The translations under genes were made by a program, and so were the position numbers. Source: Phototrophicus methaneseepsis (GTDB taxonomy: Bacteria > Chloroflexota > Anaerolineae > Aggregatilineales > Phototrophicaceae). From it: a stretch of 64,000 nt of DNA. Positions within the stretch are counted from its first letter, which is position 1. Each line of letters opens with the position of its first letter. Under the pieces are notes generated by a model. The model had not been told where the DNA came from and made no database searches. It saw only the letters and a list, made by a program, of their open reading frames with translations. Where the stretch lies: assembly GCF_015500095.1 (NCBI RefSeq), contig NZ_CP062983.1:4712001-4776000 (forward strand), read 5' to 3'. Below are positions 6,359 through 60,488 of the stretch, piece by piece.

Positions 6359-8092
6359 ATGCTCAGATCATTTCGACGTGCCATTTTCATAAGCGTCATA
6401 GGAACTTTACTCACTGTCGGGACAGTGCTCGCACAGCAAACTCAATGCTATGAATTTGTGCAGCGGGCCTTTGCCTCCGTCGATGAATATTGCTCAACAA
6501 CAGGCCGCAACGAAGCCTGTTATGGCAATGTTGCTTTAGATGCAGAACCCCAGGTTGGTGTCAACGAATTTCACTTTTCCAGCGTTGGCGATATTGAAAA
6601 CGTCACCAACATCCAATCTCTTAAACTCTACGATCTTGACGAAAGTGTCGGCGTGTGGGGCATCGCATTCATGCGGTTGCAAGCCAACTTGCCAGATACG
6701 CTACCTGGGCAAAATGCGACGGTCATCCTGTTCGGTGATGTCAGCCTTGAAAATAACGATGATCTAGATTCTAAGAATCTACAAGCATTCTATCTACAAA
6801 CCGGGCTTGGGCGGCCTAGCTGCTCAGAAGTACCCCAGAGCGGGCTACTCATCCAGACCCCTGATGGCGTTGAAGAAGTGACATTTAATATCAACGGCGT
6901 CGACGTGACACTGGGGTCTACCGTGTTGTTCCAGGCACAACCCAACGCAGCCATGACTATTACAACAGTTGAAGGGTCCGCTGTCGTTGCAATTGATGAC
7001 AAGAATTATACGGCGATTGCAGGGACACGCATTCATATCCCTGTCGATGAGAATTTAAAGCCCATCGCAGCCCCGACCTTGCCAGAAGCCTATACAGAAG
7101 AAGACGTACAGGCGTTACCAGTATCCTTATTGGAGCGCCCAATTGAAGTCGCAGCGCCGATGGCACAAGATGTGCTGCAACGTGTTCGTGACCGACTTTC
7201 GGCGGGACTGGTGCCCTGTGGTGAAGATGGATTGCCAGCTTGTGACAGTATGAAGCCGGTAGTCAATCGTGGCAATCATTTGGCACATGATGATGACTGG
7301 ACCCCTGGCGAGCCAAATGGCAAGGGGCCAGATGGGGATGGCCCACCAGGGCAAAATAACCAGCCGACAACACCAGGCAGTAGTGAAAATACGCCAGCCA
7401 ACAATGGCACTGGCAATAGTAGCAACGGCAACAGTGGCACCAACAATAATGGTACCGGCAATAGCAATAACGCCAACAACAATAATGGCAACGGTAACAA
7501 CGGTAATAACGCCAACAACAGTAACAATAACAACAACGATAGTAACAGTAACCCTGGTAACAGTGGCAACAATAATTCCGGCAACAACAATATGGGTGGC
7601 AATAGCAACTCAAACAACAACAGTAACAACGGAAATGGCCCTGGTGGTAATGGTCCCCCAGGGCAGCAAAATAGCACAACTGCCCCTGGAAACAGCGAGA
7701 ATACCTCTGCAAATAATCAGCCCAACAACGGGAATAGCAGAAGCGACAGCGGCAACCAGAGTGCCGCTGATTCGGGTTCTGGTAGTAGCAATCCCGGCAA
7801 TAGCGATACCCCTGGCAACGATAATAACCCCGACAACAGCAATAACCCTGGCAATTCTGGTAATGCCCCTCATAACAACGATAATCCCAATAACAGCGAC
7901 ACTCCCGGTAACAACGATAATCCTGATAATTCCGGCAACAACGACACCCCTGGTCACAGCGATAACCCCGGCAACAATGGCAATTCTAGTAATGCTCCTC
8001 ATAACAACGATAACCCCAATAACAGCGACGCTCCCGGTAACAGCGATAACCCTGGAAACTCCGGCAAATCTGGCAACGGCAAGAACCCGTAA
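6359..8092 (+). CDS. Secreted FecR-like-domain protein with Asn/Gly/Ser/Pro-rich tail (paralogue)
   Basis: This 577-aa protein is a clear paralogue of the preceding gene. The signal peptide (MLRSFRRAIF... ending TVLAQ), the cysteines, FYLQTGLG, CSEVPQSGLLIQTP, FNINGVDVTLGSTVLFQ and AGTRIHIP are shared over about 300 residues. The tails are unrelated: here residues about 310-577 are almost entirely N, G, S, P and D, with tandem units such as NNDNPNNSD and GNSDNPGNSG. Such tails are usually disordered and extracellular; adhesion or spacing from the cell wall is inference. The gene has its own 154-bp upstream gap, so it may be transcribed separately. Function is unknown. Confidence 0.75.
   Translation: MLRSFRRAIFISVIGTLLTVGTVLAQQTQCYEFVQRAFASVDEYCSTTGRNEACYGNVALDAEPQVGVNEFHFSSVGDIENVTNIQSLKLYDLDESVGVWGIAFMRLQANLPDTLPGQNATVILFGDVSLENNDDLDSKNLQAFYLQTGLGRPSCSEVPQSGLLIQTPDGVEEVTFNINGVDVTLGSTVLFQAQPNAAMTITTVEGSAVVAIDDKNYTAIAGTRIHIPVDENLKPIAAPTLPEAYTEEDVQALPVSLLERPIEVAAPMAQDVLQRVRDRLSAGLVPCGEDGLPACDSMKPVVNRGNHLAHDDDWTPGEPNGKGPDGDGPPGQNNQPTTPGSSENTPANNGTGNSSNGNSGTNNNGTGNSNNANNNNGNGNNGNNANNSNNNNNDSNSNPGNSGNNNSGNNNMGGNSNSNNNSNNGNGPGGNGPPGQQNSTTAPGNSENTSANNQPNNGNSRSDSGNQSAADSGSGSSNPGNSDTPGNDNNPDNSNNPGNSGNAPHNNDNPNNSDTPGNNDNPDNSGNNDTPGHSDNPGNNGNSSNAPHNNDNPNNSDAPGNSDNPGNSGKSGNGKNP
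7340..8085 (+). repeat. Low-complexity coding repeat (Asn/Gly/Ser/Pro)
   Basis: The bases are dominated by AAC, AAT, GGC, GGT and AGC codons. A longer internal duplication is visible in the protein: the segment starting NAPHNNDNPNNSD occurs twice, near nucleotides 7862 and 7993. The stretch is prone to slippage and length variation. Confidence 0.8.
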
Positions 8093-28313: not shown

Positions 28314-30029
28314 ATGGCCCGATATATTCGTTCTCTTGGTGTCGTAGCTGTTATTGCGCTACTGATGACCGCCCTGGGTATTACTTCCGCCCAGGATATG
28401 GAAAATGTCTTACGTACTGACCTGGGTTCAAGTGATGTACCAACCCTCGACCCAGCACTCGCAACAGACAGCTCCTCAATCCAGATTATCAATGAAACCT
28501 ACATCGGTCTGACTATGCTCGATGATGAAACCGCCTCTACCGAGCCAGGCATCGCTGAAAGCTGGGATGTTACTGATAACGGTGATGGCACCACCACCTA
28601 CACCTTCAACCTGATGCAGGAAATCCCGTGGGTGAAGTACAACGCCGAAAGTGGCGAAGTTGAACAGGTTATGGACGCTGATGGCAACCCGCGTTACGTA
28701 ACCGCTTATGACCTGGAATATGGTTGGGAACGTACCCTGAACCCGCTGACCGGTGGCGAATACGCTTATGTGCTCGCTCCGGAAGTCATCGGTGGTGCGG
28801 ACTTCAACTTCCAGGAAGTCGGTGAAGACAACGAACTGACCGTCACCCGCGACAGCGTTATGTTTGCTGCCGTTGACGATTACACCTTCGAAGTCACAAC
28901 CGATGCTCCGAAAGAAGCACAACTTTCCATTTACGGCATGTGGATGGCTCGTCCTCAACCGTCATGGGTGATTGAAGAAGCTGGCGAACTCTGGATTGAA
29001 CCAGAAAACTTCGTGAGCTATGGCCCCTTCGCCCTGTGGGAGTGGAACCACGACGAATTCATCAGCATCGTCAAGAACCCCTTCTGGCCGGGTACCGATA
29101 ACAACCCGCAGGCTCAGTTGGACGGCGTCGTCTTCAACTTCCTGGACAGCGTGACAGCTCTGGCTGAATACGAAGCCGGTAACCTGGACGATCTGGACGA
29201 AGTTGACAGCGCTTCCATCCCGCGCATCCAGTCAGACCCGACCCTGAGCGAAGAACTGGTTATCGAAGACGGTTCCTGCTCCTACTACTATGGCATGAGC
29301 GTCAACGTTGAACCGATGACCAACGTTCACCTACGCCGTGCGCTCAGCTATGCTGTTGATCGCCAGCAGATCGTTGACGAAGTTCTCCAGGGTGGCCAGA
29401 CGCCAGCAAGCTACTTCACACTGCCGAGCCTGAACGCAGCCCCGCAGCCTGAGTACATGGAAGAAATGGGCTACGGCATTGGCTACGATCCGGATGCAGC
29501 CGTTGAAGAACTCGAAATCGCTATGGAAGAAATGGGCGTCGGCAGCGTTGACGAAATCGCACCGGTCACCCTGCTCTACAACACCAGTGAAGGTCACCGC
29601 CGTATCGCAGAAGCTATCCGCGATCAGTGGGATGAAACACTCGGTATTGAAGTTCAGCTGACCAACCAGGACTTCGGCGTTTACCTGGATCAGCGTCCTG
29701 AATTCCCGATCTGGCGTGCAGGCTGGTGCTTCGACTATCCTGACACCAACAACTTCCTGTTCGATGTCTTCCATTCATCCAGCACCAACAACGATACTGG
29801 CTATGTCAGCGAAGAATTCGATTCACTGGTTGCACAGGCTGCTACAGAAACCGATACCGAAACACGTATGGAACTGTACGCACAGGCTGAACAACTGCTG
29901 GTCTTCGAAGATGCTGCGATCATCCCGATCTACTGGTACAGCGACCTCGAACTGACCAAGCCGTATGTTGACCGTACCTATGCCGTTGACAACTCCGAAC
30001 AGTACGAAAACTGGAGCATGAGCCGCTAA
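28314..30029 (+). CDS. Peptide-type ABC importer substrate-binding protein (SBP_bac_5)
   Basis: This 571-aa exported protein belongs to the DppA/OppA class. The signal peptide (ARYIRSLGVVAVIALLMTAL, cleavage after TSAQ) is followed by LRTDLGSSDVPTLDPALATD, the usual class start. Later motifs are GIAESWDVTDNGDGTTTYTF, NVHLRRALSYAVDRQQIVDE and TNQDFGVYLDQR. It binds oligopeptides or other large solutes outside the membrane. TAGGAGA is 7 bases before the ATG. Codons are biased (GTT, GAA, CTG and AAC favoured), suggesting high expression. The matching permeases are 570 bp downstream, after a terminator. Confidence 0.94.
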   Translation: MARYIRSLGVVAVIALLMTALGITSAQDMENVLRTDLGSSDVPTLDPALATDSSSIQIINETYIGLTMLDDETASTEPGIAESWDVTDNGDGTTTYTFNLMQEIPWVKYNAESGEVEQVMDADGNPRYVTAYDLEYGWERTLNPLTGGEYAYVLAPEVIGGADFNFQEVGEDNELTVTRDSVMFAAVDDYTFEVTTDAPKEAQLSIYGMWMARPQPSWVIEEAGELWIEPENFVSYGPFALWEWNHDEFISIVKNPFWPGTDNNPQAQLDGVVFNFLDSVTALAEYEAGNLDDLDEVDSASIPRIQSDPTLSEELVIEDGSCSYYYGMSVNVEPMTNVHLRRALSYAVDRQQIVDEVLQGGQTPASYFTLPSLNAAPQPEYMEEMGYGIGYDPDAAVEELEIAMEEMGVGSVDEIAPVTLLYNTSEGHRRIAEAIRDQWDETLGIEVQLTNQDFGVYLDQRPEFPIWRAGWCFDYPDTNNFLFDVFHSSSTNNDTGYVSEEFDSLVAQAATETDTETRMELYAQAEQLLVFEDAAIIPIYWYSDLELTKPYVDRTYAVDNSEQYENWSMSR

Positions 30030-30599: not shown

Positions 30600-31610
30600 A
30601 TGGGCGCATTTATCGGGCGCCGAGTTCTCTGGATGGTTTTAGTCTTATTTGTCGTTTCCATCATCACATTTTTCTTGATGCGTGCCGTCCCCGGCGGCCC
30701 GTTCGACTCAGAACGAGATTTCCCCGATTCTGTGATCGAAAATTTGGAAGCGCGTTTTGGTCTGAGCGATCCACTCATCATCCAGTATTTCCGTTACATT
30801 GGTCAAATCATCGTCCCCACCGTGACGGAACCCGGCCCTCCCCGCAGTACGTCGGAAGATTATCTCGTTTCTATTGACCTGCCAGGTGGCGAAACAACCC
30901 TGCGCTGGATGAACTTCGGCCCATCGCTTGTGGTTCGCAGTCGCAGCGTGACCGATATATTCCGGGAAAACCTGGGCGTTACAGTCCAACTCGGGTTTGC
31001 GGCTGTTTTAGTGGCCCTGACGATCGGCTTACCAGCCGGCATCATCGCCGCACTGAACCGTAACACGGTATGGGATTACGTTGGCATGGGGATTGCGACC
31101 ATTGGCGTCTCCGTGACGGCGATCACGCTGGGTCCACTGTTGCAATATATCTTCGGGGTTGAGCTGGGCTTACTGCCTATTTCGGGTTGGGGGACGCCAG
31201 AACACGTGATTATGCCCGCCTTTACATTGGGTTTTTCCCAGGCAGCTATCATTGCTCGCCTGACGCGTGCAAGCCTGTTACAGGTCTTGAACGAAGATTA
31301 TATTCGTACGGCGCGCGCAAAAGGCCTTAACAGTCGGCGCATCCTGATTGTGCATGTGCTGAAGAACGGTATGATCCCGGTCGTGACAGTCTTAGGCCCA
31401 CTCGTGGCCTCCCTGGTAACCGGGTCATTCGTCACGGAACAAATCTTCGCTATCCCCGGCATCGGGCGCGCTTATGTACAGAGTATTGGTAATCGCGACT
31501 ATACACTGATTATGGGCACGACGTTACTATTTGCATTCGCACTCGTCATCGCCAACACCATTGTCGATCTGTCGTATGGTTGGCTCGATCCACGCATACG
31601 CTACAACTAA
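30600..31610 (+). CDS. Peptide-type ABC importer permease, DppB class
   Basis: A 336-aa inner-membrane permease. The N-terminus FIGRRVLWMVLVLFVVSIIT and the PGGPF segment are class hallmarks. A periplasmic loop of about 80 residues precedes the core helices (ENLGVTVQLGFAAVLVALTI). The ATPase-contact loop is DYIRTARAKGLNSRRILIVH. The gene ends with YGWLDPRIRYN, the typical DppB terminus. AGGAGG lies 5 bases before the ATG. It pairs with the unusual DppC-type permease 16 bases downstream. No DppD/DppF ATPase is nearby. Confidence 0.94.
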   Translation: MGAFIGRRVLWMVLVLFVVSIITFFLMRAVPGGPFDSERDFPDSVIENLEARFGLSDPLIIQYFRYIGQIIVPTVTEPGPPRSTSEDYLVSIDLPGGETTLRWMNFGPSLVVRSRSVTDIFRENLGVTVQLGFAAVLVALTIGLPAGIIAALNRNTVWDYVGMGIATIGVSVTAITLGPLLQYIFGVELGLLPISGWGTPEHVIMPAFTLGFSQAAIIARLTRASLLQVLNEDYIRTARAKGLNSRRILIVHVLKNGMIPVVTVLGPLVASLVTGSFVTEQIFAIPGIGRAYVQSIGNRDYTLIMGTTLLFAFALVIANTIVDLSYGWLDPRIRYN

Positions 31611-31626
31611 TCGTGAGGAATAGACG

Positions 31627-33621
31627 ATGACTACTGCAGAAAATACAGAAAAACAGAGTGTAGCCTATCTGGATACACCAACATCATCAAACACACGAGG
31701 CTATTGGGGCGATGCATGGTACCGCCTGACCCGTAACCGGCTGGCTATCATCGGGCTGATCATCCTTGTAGTCAATATTTTGCTGGCTATATTTGCCCCC
31801 CTGGTCGCGGTAGAAGGCATTGACGACCAGAACACCGATGAGGCCAACGCGGCCCCGGCCTGGGTGATCAATCTCTTCCCCATCCTGCAGGCCCGTGACG
31901 AAGCCTTCGATGCATCGGATGGTATCATCACCGTAGAAACAGGTCAGGAAGTTAGAGAAGGCGATTTACTTGTCGATTACACGGTTAGCAATCTACAGGC
32001 AACCACAAGTGGCACCGTCTTCATCGACACACGCCGCTTTTATCTGGTGCCAGATACCGTGGAAATTGCTCGTTATCCCATTCCAGATGGCCCTCGCCCT
32101 ACCGTCAGTAACCTGGATAGTGTTGAAGCAGGCGATACCCTCTTTGGTGACCAAACAGCCCCTTATGACGCAACCGTACACATCGTAAATAACGAAATCT
32201 GGTTACAGCCAACGACTGTCTGGCGCCTGAGTGCTGGCGATGTCGTCGTAGAGAACCTGCAAGAAGTTGCGCCGGGCGATGTGCTGATTGAAACAGAAGA
32301 TGGGACAATCACCACAGCATTTGGCGGCACCATCTTCCTGACGCGCAATAATGTCGAACTGGCACTCATTGAGCCATCTCGCATTGAGGTGCCGGAAGAT
32401 GCCGAAATCCAGGTACGTGATGGCCGTGAAGTCACGGCAGGCGCAACCCTCTTTGATGATGTGACGGCTCCCATCACAGGCGATGCCTTCATCGTAGAAA
32501 ATGAAGATGGCAGCCGCGAAATTATCATCCGTCAGGCAGAACAGTGGCTCATCACCGACAGCGGCATTGCTATATCGGATACAGGCCATGTCGAAGCTGG
32601 TGAGATGCTCGTTGACCTGAGCAACCGCAACGTCTATGCCAATATGGATGGTACCGTCTTTATTTCCAGCAGTGATGACGTCCTGCTGACGCCAAATGCC
32701 GTCCAACGTGTCGAACGTCCAGCAGGTACGGAGCCTGATGTAGAAAATGAGCAGCCCGTCCTGATTGGTGAGCCGCTCATTGGCAGCACCAATGCCAATA
32801 AACAGGGCGTGGCTTACGTCACAGATGACGCGGTTTATGTGCTGCCAAAGAGCACAGGCTATACGCCACTGCGTAACAAATACCCGCTCGGCGCAGATTA
32901 CCTGGGCCGTGATCTCTGGTCGCGCATTGTCTATGGCGCACGCGTGTCGCTGCTGGCAGCCTTCATTGGTCCACTGGTGAGTATCCTCGTCGGTATGCCC
33001 TATGGCCTTATCAGCGGCTATTTTGGTGGCTCTGTCGACAACTGGATGATGCGCTTTGTAGACCTGATGTACGCCTTCCCGACCCTGCTGTTGATTATCC
33101 TGTTGATGGCGTTCTTCCGCAGCAGCGCGGCAGCCACCGCCCCTGGCACATTCGCCTATCAAATGGGCGAAATAGACCGAGCGACGGGCGGCGTGTTCTT
33201 CATCTTCTTGGGTATCGGCCTGACATCCTGGATGCAGTTGGCACGCCTGACGCGTGGGCAGGTCCTTTCCGCCCGTGCACAAGAATACGTCGTCGCCGCA
33301 GAAGCATTAGGCCAATCAACGCCGCAGATTATGCTTCGCCACATCATGCCGAATATTCTTGGCCCCATTGTCATCAGCGAAACGCTTTCTATCCCAACCT
33401 ACATCCGCTACGAAGCGTTCCTGAGCTTCATCGGCCTGGGCGTCAACGCGCCAACGCCGAGTTGGGGTAATATGATCAGTGATGGCGCCGCCGTGTTACG
33501 GAACTATCCGCACGAAGCGTTGTTCCCGGCGCTGGCCCTCTTCCTGATTATGTTCGCGTTCAACTTCCTGGGTGATGGTCTGCGTGATGCGCTCGACCCA
33601 CGTCTGCGTGGTACCGAATAA
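31627..33621 (+). CDS. Peptide-type ABC importer permease, DppC class, with a large repeat-containing insertion
   Basis: This 664-aa protein is about twice the length usual for DppC (around 300 aa). Residues 1-62 are the normal N-terminus and first helix (RLTRNRLAIIGLIILVVNIL). The core resumes at about residue 405 with YPLGADYLGRDLWSRIVYGA, five more helices, the ATPase-contact loop YVVAAEALGQSTPQIMLRH and the ending GDGLRDALDPRLRGTE. Between them, about 310 residues (98-405) form roughly six 50-residue units of the pattern V..GD.L....A..GTVF....V.L.P. This resembles barrel-sandwich hybrid folds as in the RNA polymerase beta-prime subunit or biotinyl domains (inference). By topology the insert is outside the membrane. 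The frame is continuous and the ATG has GAGGAA upstream. Confidence 0.9.
   Translation: MTTAENTEKQSVAYLDTPTSSNTRGYWGDAWYRLTRNRLAIIGLIILVVNILLAIFAPLVAVEGIDDQNTDEANAAPAWVINLFPILQARDEAFDASDGIITVETGQEVREGDLLVDYTVSNLQATTSGTVFIDTRRFYLVPDTVEIARYPIPDGPRPTVSNLDSVEAGDTLFGDQTAPYDATVHIVNNEIWLQPTTVWRLSAGDVVVENLQEVAPGDVLIETEDGTITTAFGGTIFLTRNNVELALIEPSRIEVPEDAEIQVRDGREVTAGATLFDDVTAPITGDAFIVENEDGSREIIIRQAEQWLITDSGIAISDTGHVEAGEMLVDLSNRNVYANMDGTVFISSSDDVLLTPNAVQRVERPAGTEPDVENEQPVLIGEPLIGSTNANKQGVAYVTDDAVYVLPKSTGYTPLRNKYPLGADYLGRDLWSRIVYGARVSLLAAFIGPLVSILVGMPYGLISGYFGGSVDNWMMRFVDLMYAFPTLLLIILLMAFFRSSAAATAPGTFAYQMGEIDRATGGVFFIFLGIGLTSWMQLARLTRGQVLSARAQEYVVAAEALGQSTPQIMLRHIMPNILGPIVISETLSIPTYIRYEAFLSFIGLGVNAPTPSWGNMISDGAAVLRNYPHEALFPALALFLIMFAFNFLGDGLRDALDPRLRGTE
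31921..32850 (+). repeat. About six coding repeats inserted in the DppC-type permease
   Basis: Unit starts recognised in the protein are GQEVREGDLLVD, DSVEAGDTLFGD, QEVAPGDVLIET, REVTAGATLFDD, GHVEAGEMLVD and QPVLIGEPLIGS. Each is followed 10-20 residues later by a G-T-V-F-like strand. The units are divergent, so this is an old duplication rather than slippage. Confidence 0.8.
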
Positions 33622-33775: not shown

Positions 33776-34696
33776 ATGTCATCAACAAAACCAGAACGCG
33801 CAGCCATTGGCGTCGATGTTGGCGGCACCAAAATTGCATTCCATTTAGGCGATGGAACGGGTTGGTCTGTTGAGGAGCGCATCATTCCGACCCCTGTCAC
33901 AGAGGGCGCAACAGCGATCTTAGCCGCCATTATCCAAGAGTGCCGCCAAATTCAAGAAGCTGCCAGCCAGCAAGGTATTGAAGTTGTCGCCGTTGGGGTT
34001 GGTTCCGCGGGACAAATTGATACTGAACGCGGCATCGTCCTGGATGCAAACGAGAATCTACCCGGTTGGCAAGGCATCCCCATCAGCGCGACGATTTCAG
34101 CGGCATTAGGCATCCCCGTTTATGTCGATAATGATGTGAAAGTGCTCGCCCTGGCAGAAAGCCACATCGGCGCAGGTCGCCCTTACGATCATATTCTCTA
34201 TGTGGCAGTCGGCACAGGGATTGGCGGCGCAATCGTCATCCATAACCGGATATGGCATGGGGCACATGGCAGCGCTGGCGAAATTGGCTATCTTTATACA
34301 GGCACCGGGCGCACGCTAGAAGAATGCGCGGCTGGCCCGCCCCTGGCTCAGGCTTACGCTAATGCCACAGGGAAAGTCAGCGTCACGCTCTATGATGTCG
34401 CCCAATATGCAGGGGATGGTGACGAAACCGCTGTGCGTGTCATTGAACAAGGGGCGGAAATATTGGGACGTGTTCTGGCGCCTGTGCTCTGCCTGCTGGA
34501 CCCACAAGCACTTATTATTGGTGGCGGCGTGCCCGATATTGGGGACCTATGGTGGCAGCCATTCCTGGATGCCTTACAAATGGCCCCTTTAGCCAGCGCG
34601 CGTAATATCCCGGTCAAGCGTGCTGAGCTAGGCACATCAGCAGGTGTACTGGGGGCTTCACTCATGGCGCTGAATCGTCTGGAAAGTCAGGCATAG
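33776..34696 (+). CDS. ROK-family sugar kinase, probable N-acetylmannosamine kinase
   Basis: This 306-aa protein has an N-terminal ATP motif DVGGTK (residues 14-19), catalytic Asp in VYVDNDVK (DND at 118-120), GTGIGGAIV and GSAGEIGY. The ROK zinc site is not conserved: the His after EIG is Tyr, and the usual CxCGxxGC is replaced by a segment with a single Cys (TLEECAAG). That departs from classical glucokinase/NanK ROK proteins. NanE starts immediately after the stop codon, so phosphorylation of N-acetylmannosamine is the most likely role (context inference). Glucose or another amino sugar is possible. Confidence 0.85.
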   Translation: MSSTKPERAAIGVDVGGTKIAFHLGDGTGWSVEERIIPTPVTEGATAILAAIIQECRQIQEAASQQGIEVVAVGVGSAGQIDTERGIVLDANENLPGWQGIPISATISAALGIPVYVDNDVKVLALAESHIGAGRPYDHILYVAVGTGIGGAIVIHNRIWHGAHGSAGEIGYLYTGTGRTLEECAAGPPLAQAYANATGKVSVTLYDVAQYAGDGDETAVRVIEQGAEILGRVLAPVLCLLDPQALIIGGGVPDIGDLWWQPFLDALQMAPLASARNIPVKRAELGTSAGVLGASLMALNRLESQA

Positions 34697-35371
34697 ATGG
34701 ACAAAGATGCATTCATTGAGCAGGTACGCAACAAACTCATCGTTTCCTGCCAGGCCCTCCCCGATGAACCGCTCTATGGCGCGCAGATTATGGCCCGCAT
34801 GGCGGTCGCAGCCCAGATTGGCGGCGCATCCGCAATCCGCGCCAACAGTCCCGCAGATATTCAGGCAATTAAAGCAGCAGTCGATTTACCTGTGATCGGC
34901 CTCTATAAACAGGGCGATACAGGCATCTACATTACGCCCACCCATGAAGCTATTCTGGCGGTCATTGCTGCCGGATGCGATGTGGTCGCGCTTGATGCTA
35001 CCTTGCGCCCTCGCCCAAGTGAGGCATCACTCCAAACCCTATTCGAGACAATCCATGCTCAGGGCAAGCTGATCCTGGCCGATGTCTCCACATTTGAGGA
35101 AGGCCAGAACGCGCAAGCTTTGGGTGCTGATTTCGTCGCGCCGACCCTCTCGGGCTACACAGAATACACGCCCAAACTCGATGGCCCTGATTTCGAACTC
35201 ATTGCACGTCTGGCCGCTGAGCTAAACATCCCAACTATCGCAGAAGGCCGCATCCACACGCCGGCTCAGGCTCGCCAAGCGCTTGATTCAGGTGCATTAG
35301 CCGTGGTTGTCGGCTCAGCCATTACGAGGCCGCGCCTGATTACTAAGTCGTTCGTGGATGCACTTTTATAA
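34697..35371 (+). CDS. nanE: N-acetylmannosamine-6-phosphate 2-epimerase
   Basis: A 224-aa TIM-barrel enzyme converting ManNAc-6-P to GlcNAc-6-P in sialic acid and amino-sugar breakdown. Family features are [15 protein letters not shown] at the start, [30 protein letters not shown] (with the expected catalytic Lys), [25 protein letters not shown] and [12 protein letters not shown]. The ATG is directly adjacent to the ROK kinase stop, so the two are coupled. No NanA lyase is present in the window. The preceding peptide-type importer could supply amino-sugar oligomers or muropeptides (inference). Confidence 0.92.
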
Positions 35372-57491: not shown

Positions 57492-57743
57492 ATGAGCCGA
57501 CGAATTGCCAAAGAAATCAAGGAAGAAATCCTGAGTAAGGTACAGTCAGGCGAACGTGTAGCCGATCTGGCCAAGCAGTATGGGGTCAGTACCAAATCAA
57601 TCTACGGATGGCTGCGTCAAGACAGTGGCGAAACCGTTATTTCAGTGCTGGAATACAACAAACTCAAACGCGAGAACGAAGAACTGAAGCGGCTCATCGG
57701 CGAGTTGACGCTGAATATGCATCAGCAAAAAAAGTCGAAATAG
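57492..57743 (+). CDS. IS3-family transposase OrfA (copy 1)
   Basis: An 83-aa DNA-binding protein. The helix-turn-helix is in residues about 5-45 (EEILSKVQSGERVADLAKQY, VSTKSIYGWLRQ), and a leucine-zipper-like stretch follows (YNKLKRENEELKRLIGELTL). GGGGG lies 5-9 bases before the ATG. Near its end, CAGCAAAAAAAGTC (57724-57737) holds an A7G slippery stretch where a -1 frameshift would join it to OrfB. OrfA alone usually acts as a regulator of transposition. Confidence 0.93.
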   Translation: MSRRIAKEIKEEILSKVQSGERVADLAKQYGVSTKSIYGWLRQDSGETVISVLEYNKLKRENEELKRLIGELTLNMHQQKKSK

Positions 57744-58555
57744 TTCGCCAAAGCAGGCTGAAATCAGTCTGTGCTGACGCACTGGGCATCAACCGCAAGA
57801 ACATCTATCGGCAGCTCAGGCAAGCTGCCAAAGACCGCATTCTTAAAGAACAGATCGAGGCGGTGCATCGTGAGCATCCCGCTTACGGCCATCGCCGAAT
57901 AGCACTGCATCTGGGTATCAATCACAAACGCACGCAGCGGGTGATGGCCAAATTCAAGCTGAAACCGCCCAGACGCCGAGCCAAACGCTATAGCACCGTC
58001 TCAACATCCCATCACAGCTATAACAATCTGCTGAAAGACCAGACTGTGACGCGTCCACATCAGGTGTGGTGCAGCGATCTGAGCCGCATCGTGTATCGCG
58101 GCACCCTCTGGTATATCGCCACCATCGAAGACCTCTTCACTCGCCAGATCATCGCTCAGCGCATGGGTAAACGGCATGACAGCCATCTGGTTTTAGCCAC
58201 GCTGCAACAGGCCTTGGCGACCGGATGCCAGCCGCAACTCTTCCATTCAGATCAGGGCAATGAATTTATGGCTCAGCGTTGTACCGACTATCTGGAGCAG
58301 CGGGGGATTCAGGTTTCGGTCAGCGATGTCGCCTCACCCTGGCAGAACGGTTGCATGGAATCCTTCTTCGGACGCTTTAAGCACGAGCTGGGTGATCTCG
58401 ACCGTTTTGATTCACCTGGCGAGATGATCGAGGCCATTTACCACCATATCCACTACTACAATCATCACCGAATTCACACGGCTCTCAAGATGCCACCGGC
58501 TACTTTTGCCGCCAAAACTTTCTCAGACAACGGTCTTCATGTTTGGGGTACTTGA
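57608..58555 (+). CDS. IS3-family transposase OrfB, DDE integrase domain (copy 1)
   Basis: The catalytic part, probably made as an OrfAB fusion of about 354 residues by -1 frameshifting at the A7G stretch. The OrfB-specific sequence begins with KVEIVRQSRLKSVCADALGI. An HTH_21-like segment (EHPAYGHRRIALHLGINHKR) precedes the DDE core: Asp in VWCSDLSRI, Asp in FHSDQGNEF and Glu in CMESFFGRFKHEL, with 35 residues between the second Asp and the Glu. The stop lies inside the right terminal repeat. The upstream part of this frame (before 57731) overlaps OrfA and is probably not translated independently. Confidence 0.93.
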   Translation: MAASRQWRNRYFSAGIQQTQTRERRTEAAHRRVDAEYASAKKVEIVRQSRLKSVCADALGINRKNIYRQLRQAAKDRILKEQIEAVHREHPAYGHRRIALHLGINHKRTQRVMAKFKLKPPRRRAKRYSTVSTSHHSYNNLLKDQTVTRPHQVWCSDLSRIVYRGTLWYIATIEDLFTRQIIAQRMGKRHDSHLVLATLQQALATGCQPQLFHSDQGNEFMAQRCTDYLEQRGIQVSVSDVASPWQNGCMESFFGRFKHELGDLDRFDSPGEMIEAIYHHIHYYNHHRIHTALKMPPATFAAKTFSDNGLHVWGT

Positions 58556-59540
58556 CAGTCAGATGTTGCTATCTCACCAGATGGTCACAAATTGGCACTA
58601 CTAGCCTATAGCCTTGATGGTTCAGATGAAACACATCTAATCATATACTCCTTTGAAAATAACTCTGTTGAAAATATGATATTGGTAGGATATGGTAAGA
58701 TTCATTGGTCACCAGCAAGTGATTCAGTTCTAATTTTCCCCCCTCTTACTGATGGTTTCGGGCTTTATACAGTCTTACATGATATTTATCTTTACGATCT
58801 GACTACTACGAATCTAATACAGCTGACGTTTACACCCGCAGAACGGGATGAGCGGAATATGCTATGGGTTCCAGATTCATCAGTGATAGTGTTCACACAC
58901 GAATTGCAGCAATGTTTGTCAAACTGCAATGGCTTGGTTGAGAATCTTTACACGATGCAGATGGATGGAACAACATTGCAACAACTAACTGATATTTCTA
59001 CAGTGTTGCCAATAGAGCAAGTTTCAAATGGAGTATGTCTTACAAAAAACCTGAAATGGGATAGCAATAGCGAACGCATTTATTTTATAGTTTCATGTGA
59101 GGATGCTGAACAAGAGTTTCTGTATTCAACTTCATTAGAGGGACAAACCCATCTTGAGCTAAATTTGCCTAGTATGTTTCAGCCAACTGAAACAAGTATA
59201 TACTCACAAGTTCAGATTAAACACTACTATCTCGATACATTGGTTAATCGAATTGTAGTTATTGCTAGTATTGATAAAGTCAATGTAGATAATTCTACTA
59301 CTGTTAGGTCAATCCATATCTATCAGATCGATCATAGTCTAACCGAGTTGTACTCAGCTAATATTCCTAACAATTATTTCGTTAGTACATCCGACCTTAA
59401 CATATCACAAAATCTTGTGGCTGTTGGCACCCTAGACGCAACATCTACAGCCCTCGGCGAACTATACATAATAGACTTAGAGACAGCGTCTCAGATTCAA
59501 ACTAGGGAGACCAACCAGCGCATATGTGATACAAGGTGTG

Positions 59541-60488
59541 TCAAGTACCCCAAACATGAAGACCGTTGTCTGAGAAAGTTTTGGCGGCAAAAGTAGCCGG
59601 TGGCATCTTGAGAGCCGTGTGAATTCGGTGATGATTGTAGTAGTGGATATGGTGGTAAATGGCCTCGATCATCTCGCCAGGTGAATCAAAACGGTCGAGA
59701 TCACCCAGCTCGTGCTTAAAGCGTCCGAAGAAGGATTCCATGCAACCGTTCTGCCAGGGTGAGGCGACATCGCTGACCGAAACCTGAATCCCCCGCTGCT
59801 CCAGATAGTCGGTACAACGCTGAGCCATAAATTCATTGCCCTGATCTGAATGGAAGAGTTGCGGCTGGCATCCGGTCGCCAAGGCCTGTTGCAGCGTGGC
59901 TAAAACCAGATGGCTGTCATGCCGTTTACCCATGCGCTGAGCGATGATCTGGCGAGTGAAGAGGTCTTCGATGGTGGCGATATACCAGAGGGTGCCGCGA
60001 TACACGATGCGGCTCAGATCGCTGCACCACACCTGATGTGGACGCGTCACAGTCTGGTCTTTCAGCAGATTGTTATAGCTGTGATGGGATGTTGAGACGG
60101 TGCTATAGCGTTTGGCTCGGCGTCTGGGCGGTTTCAGCTTGAATTTGGCCATCACCCGCTGCGTGCGTTTGTGATTGATACCCAGATGCAGTGCTATTCG
60201 GCGATGGCCGTAAGCGGGATGCTCACGATGCACCGCCTCGATCTGTTCTTTAAGAATGCGGTCTTTGGCAGCTTGCCTGAGCTGCCGATAGATGTTCTTG
60301 CGGTTGATGCCCAGTGCGTCAGCACAGACTGATTTCAGCCTGCTTTGGCGAACTATTTCGACTTTTTTTGCTGATGCATATTCAGCGTCAACTCGCCGAT
60401 GAGCCGCTTCAGTTCTTCGTTCTCGCGTTTGAGTTTGTTGTATTCCAGCACTGAAATAACGGTTTCGCCACTGTCTTGACGCAGCCAT
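59541..60488 (-). CDS. IS3-family transposase OrfB, DDE integrase domain (copy 2)
   Basis: Identical in protein sequence to the OrfB of copy 1, with the same CSDLSRI, HSDQGNE and ESFFGRFK catalytic motifs. It is expressed by frameshifting from its OrfA. Confidence 0.93.
   Translation of the reverse strand: MAASRQWRNRYFSAGIQQTQTRERRTEAAHRRVDAEYASAKKVEIVRQSRLKSVCADALGINRKNIYRQLRQAAKDRILKEQIEAVHREHPAYGHRRIALHLGINHKRTQRVMAKFKLKPPRRRAKRYSTVSTSHHSYNNLLKDQTVTRPHQVWCSDLSRIVYRGTLWYIATIEDLFTRQIIAQRMGKRHDSHLVLATLQQALATGCQPQLFHSDQGNEFMAQRCTDYLEQRGIQVSVSDVASPWQNGCMESFFGRFKHELGDLDRFDSPGEMIEAIYHHIHYYNHHRIHTALKMPPATFAAKTFSDNGLHVWGT

Follow-up and report, generated by a model that had tools for sequence, protein, structure and literature searches.

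The locus and its permease gene

The window, by which we mean the whole 64-kb stretch of DNA that was analyzed, carries a substrate-binding protein gene, a DppB-type permease gene and a DppC-type permease gene in that order (Table 1). The last of these is a 664-aa frame without internal stops, for which the initial annotation had given the correct coordinates, frame and start. Since OppC_N (56.0 bits, cut-off 23.9) and BPD_transp_1 (108.9 bits, cut-off 26.4) both exceeded their Pfam cut-offs, and did so in the expected order, we assigned the product to the DppC/OppC-type permeases, confirming the earlier reading of a normal DppC frame with a first transmembrane helix (TM1) and a LGADYLGRD core. 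No Pfam family rose above its curated cut-off between these two domains. None of the named NCBIfam equivalogs (Opp3C, Opp4C, OppC, DppC and NikC) reached its cut-off, the best being Opp3C with 284 against 450 bits, and the protein stayed under the cut-off for all of the best 25 of 31 matched NCBIfam models. Judged by these profiles, it is a member of the superfamily with no named NCBIfam equivalog.

Table 1. Features of the permease locus, with positions in the window
Feature	Position	Strand	Basis
Family-5 substrate-binding protein, signal peptide without lipobox cysteine	28314..30029	+	PF00496, 2.4e-63; N-terminus read directly
DppB-type partner permease	30600..31610	+	PF00528, 6.6e-38; PF19300, 1.7e-8
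DppC/OppC-type ABC permease with putatively extracytoplasmic SBHM array, 664 aa	31627..33621	+	Intact frame; 77%-identical same-genus ortholog L053
OppC_N region including TM1, residues 26-77	31702..31857	+	Pfam PF12911, 3.8e-15; helix 38-55 in model
Whole insert in TM1-TM2 loop, residues 91-412	31897..32862	+	Missing from shorter relatives; position by alignment
SBHM domain copy 1 (units 1+2), residues 97-202	31915..32232	+	Profile A3 boundaries; window-free HMM 46.7 bits
SBHM domain copy 2 (units 3+4), residues 202-312	32230..32562	+	Profile A3 boundaries; window-free HMM 29.5 bits; AlphaFold2 pLDDT 83.9
SBHM domain copy 3 (units 5+6), residues 311-417	32557..32877	+	Profile A3 boundaries; window-free HMM 51.3 bits
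BPD_transp_1 membrane core, residues 456-661	32992..33609	+	Pfam PF00528, 3.4e-31; pLDDT mostly >90

The gene shares OppC_N, BPD_transp_1 and the order binding protein-DppB-DppC with E. coli DppC (PDB 8z1v) and OppC (8z21), and phmmer aligned the protein with 8z21_B at an E-value of 5.2e-60. In contrast to both, it has ~320 extra residues between TM1 and TM2, and no ABC ATPase gene was detected when the window was scanned for ATPase motifs. Elsewhere in the genome there are 16 matches to oligo_HPY, the ATPase tail family. We applied the same scan to eight further loci carrying an inserted loop (seven with the domain described below and one with SH3b repeats; 8-17 kb) and to 25 insert-free loci, each 10.5 kb or longer. 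It found no ATPase gene in 8/8 of the former but also none in 11/25 of the latter, and the lack of one was rejected as a carrier-only trait.

Genes for a ROK kinase and a NanE epimerase lie directly downstream of the permease (33776-35371). A sialic-acid importer of the SatABCD type was considered on this account, but neither gene was recognised by eye among the frames listed beside the same-genus operon; the genomic context therefore leaves the substrate unfixed. A promoter and terminator scan returned sites no more numerous than in shuffles. A plasmid search with the 664-aa protein gave 3776 partial record matches, none of which covered >80% of it. Elsewhere in the window, one 315-aa transposase with rve domains occurs twice in inverted orientation (57608-58555, +; 59541-60488, -), flanking an ORF at 58592-59596, and a 577-aa secreted-looking protein (6359-8092, +) has a long, low-complexity C-terminal half rich in Asn, Gly, Ser and Pro.

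Repeat structure and predicted fold of the insert

The conserved core of the 664-aa permease (LGADYLGRD) starts at residue 421. For comparison we took the best 80 of 590 confirmed named-genome relatives and located the core site in 62 of them; it lay within 150 residues of the open-frame start in 56, the exceptions being L159, L179, L190, L192, L195 and L198. Because of this difference in core position, the claim of some 310 extra residues where DppC proteins usually have a short segment was correct, and alignment placed an insert of about 320 residues in the TM1-TM2 loop. In the short forms, 'W...FPxMxP' passes nearly straight into 'GY/GF V..N..Y..GAD'. Long search matches among the 80 relatives gave the impression of long permeases, but the frames were mostly short and the matches had extended into upstream sequence. 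L190, L192, L195 and L198 (Izimaplasma/Izemoplasma, Fusibacter and Firmicutes) are OppC-type proteins whose TM1-TM2 loops of ~116-236 residues are unrelated in sequence.

The initial annotation had described the insert as six units of about 50 residues. When the six units were scored pairwise, odd units matched odd units at z 5.7-8.4 and even units matched even units in two of three pairs (z 6.9 and 5.9; units 4 and 6 only 1.6), and the odd-even pairs scored 1.5-5.1. Since the units alternate in this manner, the repeat is better described as a two-unit domain of ~107 residues present three times. The domain boundaries were set with profile A3, built from 12 domain copies that include these three. 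We also built an HMM from five single-copy relatives only (L051, L052, L115, L117 and L118), from which the window and same-genus proteins were excluded. This window-free HMM scored 125.1 bits on the permease over three tandem stretches (97-198, 202-306 and 311-418), and the best of 4,000 scrambled-insert controls (2,000 shuffled and 2,000 block-reversed) reached 12.9 bits. The repeats are thus real, but they form three two-unit domains rather than six equal units.

The initial annotation had likened the insert to a barrel-sandwich hybrid fold and had suggested profile searches and structure prediction. When profile A3 was searched against all PDB sequences, RNA polymerase beta' ranked first (Thermus RpoC, 8.3e-14; isolated Thermus beta' insert 2auj, 1.2e-12; cyanobacterial SI3 8emb, 7.2e-10), followed by Thermotoga NusG at 1.1e-5 and a biotin carboxylase chain at 2e-4. 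These E-values are sums over several stretches per chain, and the best single stretches in the alignments shown had values of 0.0018 (5tjg) and 0.00032 (6oy6). The matched region of RpoC is the sandwich-barrel hybrid motif (SBHM). Matches to the Pfam family RPOC_hybrid (PF21668) stayed under its cut-off of 27 bits: four of the insert-bearing DppC proteins, P0001 among them, scored 12.7-13.4 bits, no match was listed for three others, and the genome's own RpoC, with 14.6 bits, was likewise under this cut-off. Biotin_lipoyl_2 (cut-off 29.8 bits) remained unreached at 17.2 bits in the 664-aa permease and 26.3 bits in its ortholog L053.

In a full-length AlphaFold2 model, made from an alignment of 35 sequences without insert-bearing relatives, the membrane core was good and the insert mostly had pLDDT <50; copies 1 and 3 were modelled in this context only. 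The middle copy was also modelled alone, with the other two copies of the same protein as its alignment, and was predicted as an all-beta domain (pLDDT 83.9, pTM 0.65). In a Foldseek search with this model, all of the best 50 matches were RNA polymerase chains or SI3; the best, 8emb, had an E-value of 5e-3 and a probability of 1.00, and none reached 0.001. Structural alignment of the Foldseek top 1000 gave plastid beta'' a Z of 9.9 (1.2 A over 56 residues), followed by NusG domain 2 (9.4), Thermus beta' (9.3), NqrA (7.6) and RnfC (7.0); according to the tool's note, a Z below 8 may reflect merely a common arrangement, and most of the rows cover the second unit only (model residues 45-101). Both routes point to compact, repeated SBHM-like domains, and the assignment of the insert units as SBHMs, by sequence and by the predicted fold of the middle copy, is well supported.

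The architecture can therefore be stated with confidence: a DppC-type permease with a three-copy SBHM array in its TM1-TM2 loop. The array is probably extracytoplasmic, as had been suggested, judging from the fold of DppC proteins and from the basic residues RLTRNR ahead of TM1. It resembles the SBHM insertions of RNA polymerase beta' (2auj, the SI3 of 8emb, plastid PEP) in that tandem SBHMs form an insertion, and differs from them in lying in what would be the outer loop of a transporter and in repeating a two-unit domain three times. SBHMs have been described in RnfC and PduS (PMC1796856, in the cited part). RnfC, PduS and NqrA thus represent other protein classes with a barrel-sandwich hybrid domain, but each has one such domain and no array, and Pfam RnfC_N and NQRA_N stayed below cut-off in our protein. 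No paper in the literature searched combined barrel-sandwich hybrid, ABC transporter and permease, and no permease of this type appeared among the matches listed by further searches, as judged by title and start of abstract; as far as searched, the architecture is undescribed.

Distribution of the insert and its relation to RNA polymerase

A 669-residue ortholog with three copies and 77% identity (L053) is present in a second genome of the genus (G001). When profile A2 was run against 154 genomes from the order, insert-bearing DppC proteins were found in eight (G000, G001, G002, G006, G011, G024, G467 and G470), representing six genera of one family, that of the window. The insert had three copies in G000 and G001 and one copy in the six other carriers, although the gene of G006 is cut by the contig end. 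A further 123 of the 154 genomes gave other matches only, mostly frames of RpoC size, and the RpoC motif was found in 21 of 22 fetched non-permease loci (L092-L113; absent in L097). No SBHM match was detected at an E-value of 1 in the 80 named relative loci, the best 80 of 590, which are mostly from Chloroflexota with many labelled Anaerolineae. In 400 genomes drawn from the phylum there was no DppC match at 1e-9 beyond the window's own; another 50 genomes of the draw matched in frames of 862-2055 residues, and all 11 of those fetched (L213-L223) carried the RpoC motif. A class-level search of 396 genomes contributes no counts here, since conserved core was part of its query. The presence of the insert in related genomes speaks against a fusion artefact; with compact repeated domains predicted as well, neither of the two refuting outcomes named in the initial annotation was observed.

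Several other loci departed from the common DppC form. The single-copy permease of G011 (L118:3497-5182, -) has a second insertion of ~85 residues past AFFRSAF, apparently in the TM3-TM4 extracytoplasmic loop and without a Pfam match. G041 encodes a 762-aa DppC (L050:1709-3997, -) with SH3_3 and SH3_4 repeats in the TM1-TM2 loop (Pfam 2.7e-20 and 2.7e-17), placed nearer to TM1 than the SBHM array. In G103, a 688-aa frame (L059, from 223 onward, +) fuses the N-terminal part of a binding protein with a DppC that has no TM1, which looks like a deletion or an assembly join; in G047, DppC is spread over two frames at L029 (stretches of 355 and 190 aa), suggesting a frameshift or assembly error.

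We compared the insert and the membrane core between the window and G001. The insert had a pN of 0.23, a pS of 0.75 and an amino-acid identity of 66.5%, and the core had a pN of 0.054, a pS of 0.583 and an identity of 92.5%; no pN/pS ratio is given because the silent sites are saturated. By these counts the insert is under purifying selection and evolves faster than the core. A tree of 59 permease cores did not unite the seven carriers entered into one clade and required four changes, while a single carrier clade, that is, a single origin of the insert, was not rejected (p-AU 0.232). L026, L027, L029, L030, L123, L127, L151 and L152 were left out of this tree for want of a core, and L117 (G006) because the contig stops within its frame. 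G011 holds both an insert-bearing (L118) and an insert-free (L020) permease of this clade.

Several observations connected the insert with RpoC. A profile built from 23 Chloroflexota RpoC segments alone scored 74.5 bits on the 664-aa permease against 12.0 for the best control, and a profile-profile comparison gave a probability of 99.1. Profile A3 scored 36-76 bits on the Chloroflexota RpoC loci L092-L114. In the window's own genome, the sole listed match outside permeases was a frame of 1529 residues, read as RpoC (E 1.4e-4). The view that the insert domains are homologous to RpoC SBHMs is thus supported. The comparison with RpoC SBHMs proposed in the initial annotation was borne out, and the biotinyl families proposed beside it stayed sub-cut-off. 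The genome's RpoC (L114:10-4581, +; 1523 aa) also has a sub-cut-off apolipoprotein-like, coiled-coil match at ~145-320 (27 bits, cut-off 90).

Outside these groups, 12 genomes were reached through relatives with other labels, and six of them had no A3 match at an E-value of 1. In the remainder, RpoC loci scored 43 bits in Bipolaricaulota, 40 in Spirochaetales and 11-19 at L201-L204, and the carrier-sized frames of these other-label genomes (144-150 residues) scored under their RpoC loci. A domain tree was built from 79 columns with 51 of 65 matches kept by coverage; many forks are unresolved, branches are long and the RpoC rows fall in two registers. It placed the permease domains in an unresolved group with three other-register Chloroflexota RpoC rows, one of them from the same family (G005), and two rows from other phyla, apart from the family's main-register RpoC rows. 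A tree holding the permease domains together was not rejected (p-AU 0.329). A recent capture from the family's own RpoC was considered; this tree, with its unresolved forks, does not show it.

Possible role of the array

In E. coli, DppB and DppC lie under a cap formed by DppA, into which a periplasmic scoop motif of DppB reaches; the two permeases are unlike each other in TM1 and in the periplasmic regions TM1-TM2 and TM3-TM4 (PMC12136057, in the cited part). By analogy, the SBHM array would enter the DppC TM1-TM2 loop on the side capped by DppA. In cyanobacterial RNA polymerase, the inserted SBHM array of SI3 arches over and binds sigma (PMC10120043, in the cited part). B. subtilis App, Dpp and Opp are described in the cited part of PMC11466899 as type I importers without regulatory domains. 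GlnPQ importers have extra extracytoplasmic domains joined to the membrane subunit, but those domains bind substrate, whereas here SBHMs occur beside a separate binding protein (PMC8025302, in the cited part).

A binding-protein gene lies nearby in all carrier loci whose contig reaches that far; at L052 the contig ends ahead of it. Inspected by eye, the seven binding proteins found at eight other carrier loci (SBHM or SH3b) all lacked a lipobox cysteine, and an automatic count detected a lipobox in none of the six that could be scored (L118 was unscored). Among the 39 insert-free loci L119-L157, 27 were scored, of which 16 had a lipobox and 11 did not; lipobox loss was accordingly rejected as a carrier-only trait. 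Two more binding proteins of the window (24029 and 36610) also have no lipobox. The net charge was -38 over 335 residues for the insert and -84 over 545 residues for the binding protein, and since both are acidic, simple charge docking is disfavoured.

The initial annotation had named the binding protein, a lipoprotein or the envelope as possible docking partners. We read the protein as the DppC subunit of an ABC importer of the peptide type that has taken up an SBHM array in its TM1-TM2 extracytoplasmic loop. Our preferred reading of the array, which we hold tentatively, is that it would form a stiff arm outside the membrane. This arm may bind or corral the soluble, unlipidated binding protein and so keep it near the translocator, much as the SBHM insert of cyanobacterial RNA polymerase extends towards sigma and holds it. 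We prefer it because the array would enter the loop on the side capped by DppA, because of the SI3 analogy and because the carrier binding proteins lack a lipobox. It is weakened by the 11/27 insert-free loci and the two other binding proteins of the window that also lack one, by the acidity of both partners, by the occurrence of both permease forms in G011 and by the pLDDT below 50 of most of the insert in the full-length model, which leaves its placement on the transporter unpredicted.

Nearly as likely, and doubtful in itself, is that the array acts as an envelope anchor or spacer, fixing the importer to wall, S-layer or matrix without contact to the binding protein. SH3b domains of bacteria are commonly wall-binding, and the permease of G041 carries SH3_3/SH3_4 repeats in the same loop; that unrelated beta-repeat arrays share one loop suggests a need for reach or adhesion rather than for one specific contact. 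However, this is a single SH3b case, its array lies nearer to TM1 so that the two arrays may be non-equivalent, and to our knowledge SBHMs are not wall-binding modules.

The insert may also be a tolerated ornament that has no defined partner and sits in a loop permissive to added domains, which we consider unlikely. Its faster change relative to the core, its patchy presence on the permease tree and the long, unrelated loops of L190, L192, L195 and L198 would fit such a history, but amino-acid change stays well under silent change (pN 0.23 against a saturated pS of 0.75) and the insert persists across six genera. We find it improbable that different bacterial lineages use the DppC TM1-TM2 loop as a docking port for unrelated beta-repeat arrays (RNA-polymerase-type SBHMs, SH3b repeats) that hold an unanchored binding protein, with the SBHM array captured from beta'. 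That the insert binds a ligand or serves as a carrier module (biotinyl/lipoyl-like, metal or glycan) is less probable again: the insert has sub-threshold Pfam likeness to Biotin_lipoyl_2, RnfC_N, NQRA_N and PTS_EIIA_1, but all of these are under cut-off, and residues 91-412 hold two Lys and no Cys, with no MKM-like site seen on reading the sequence. Misassembly or an accidental fusion of two genes can be dismissed, given a single-contig genome, identical junctions in the second genome of the genus and single copies inserted at this site in other genera.

The locus offers a clearly delimited case in which the permease subunit of an ABC importer has a probably extracytoplasmic array of its own, and in which SBHMs form an array in a protein other than RNA polymerase. 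Natural variants with zero, one and three copies share one scaffold, which makes the role of the arm directly testable. Should an unanchored binding protein be held by the arm, this would represent a further route of retention besides lipidation and direct fusion; and if the less probable docking-port reading with capture from beta' were true, a module of the transcription machine would be at work outside the cell membrane.
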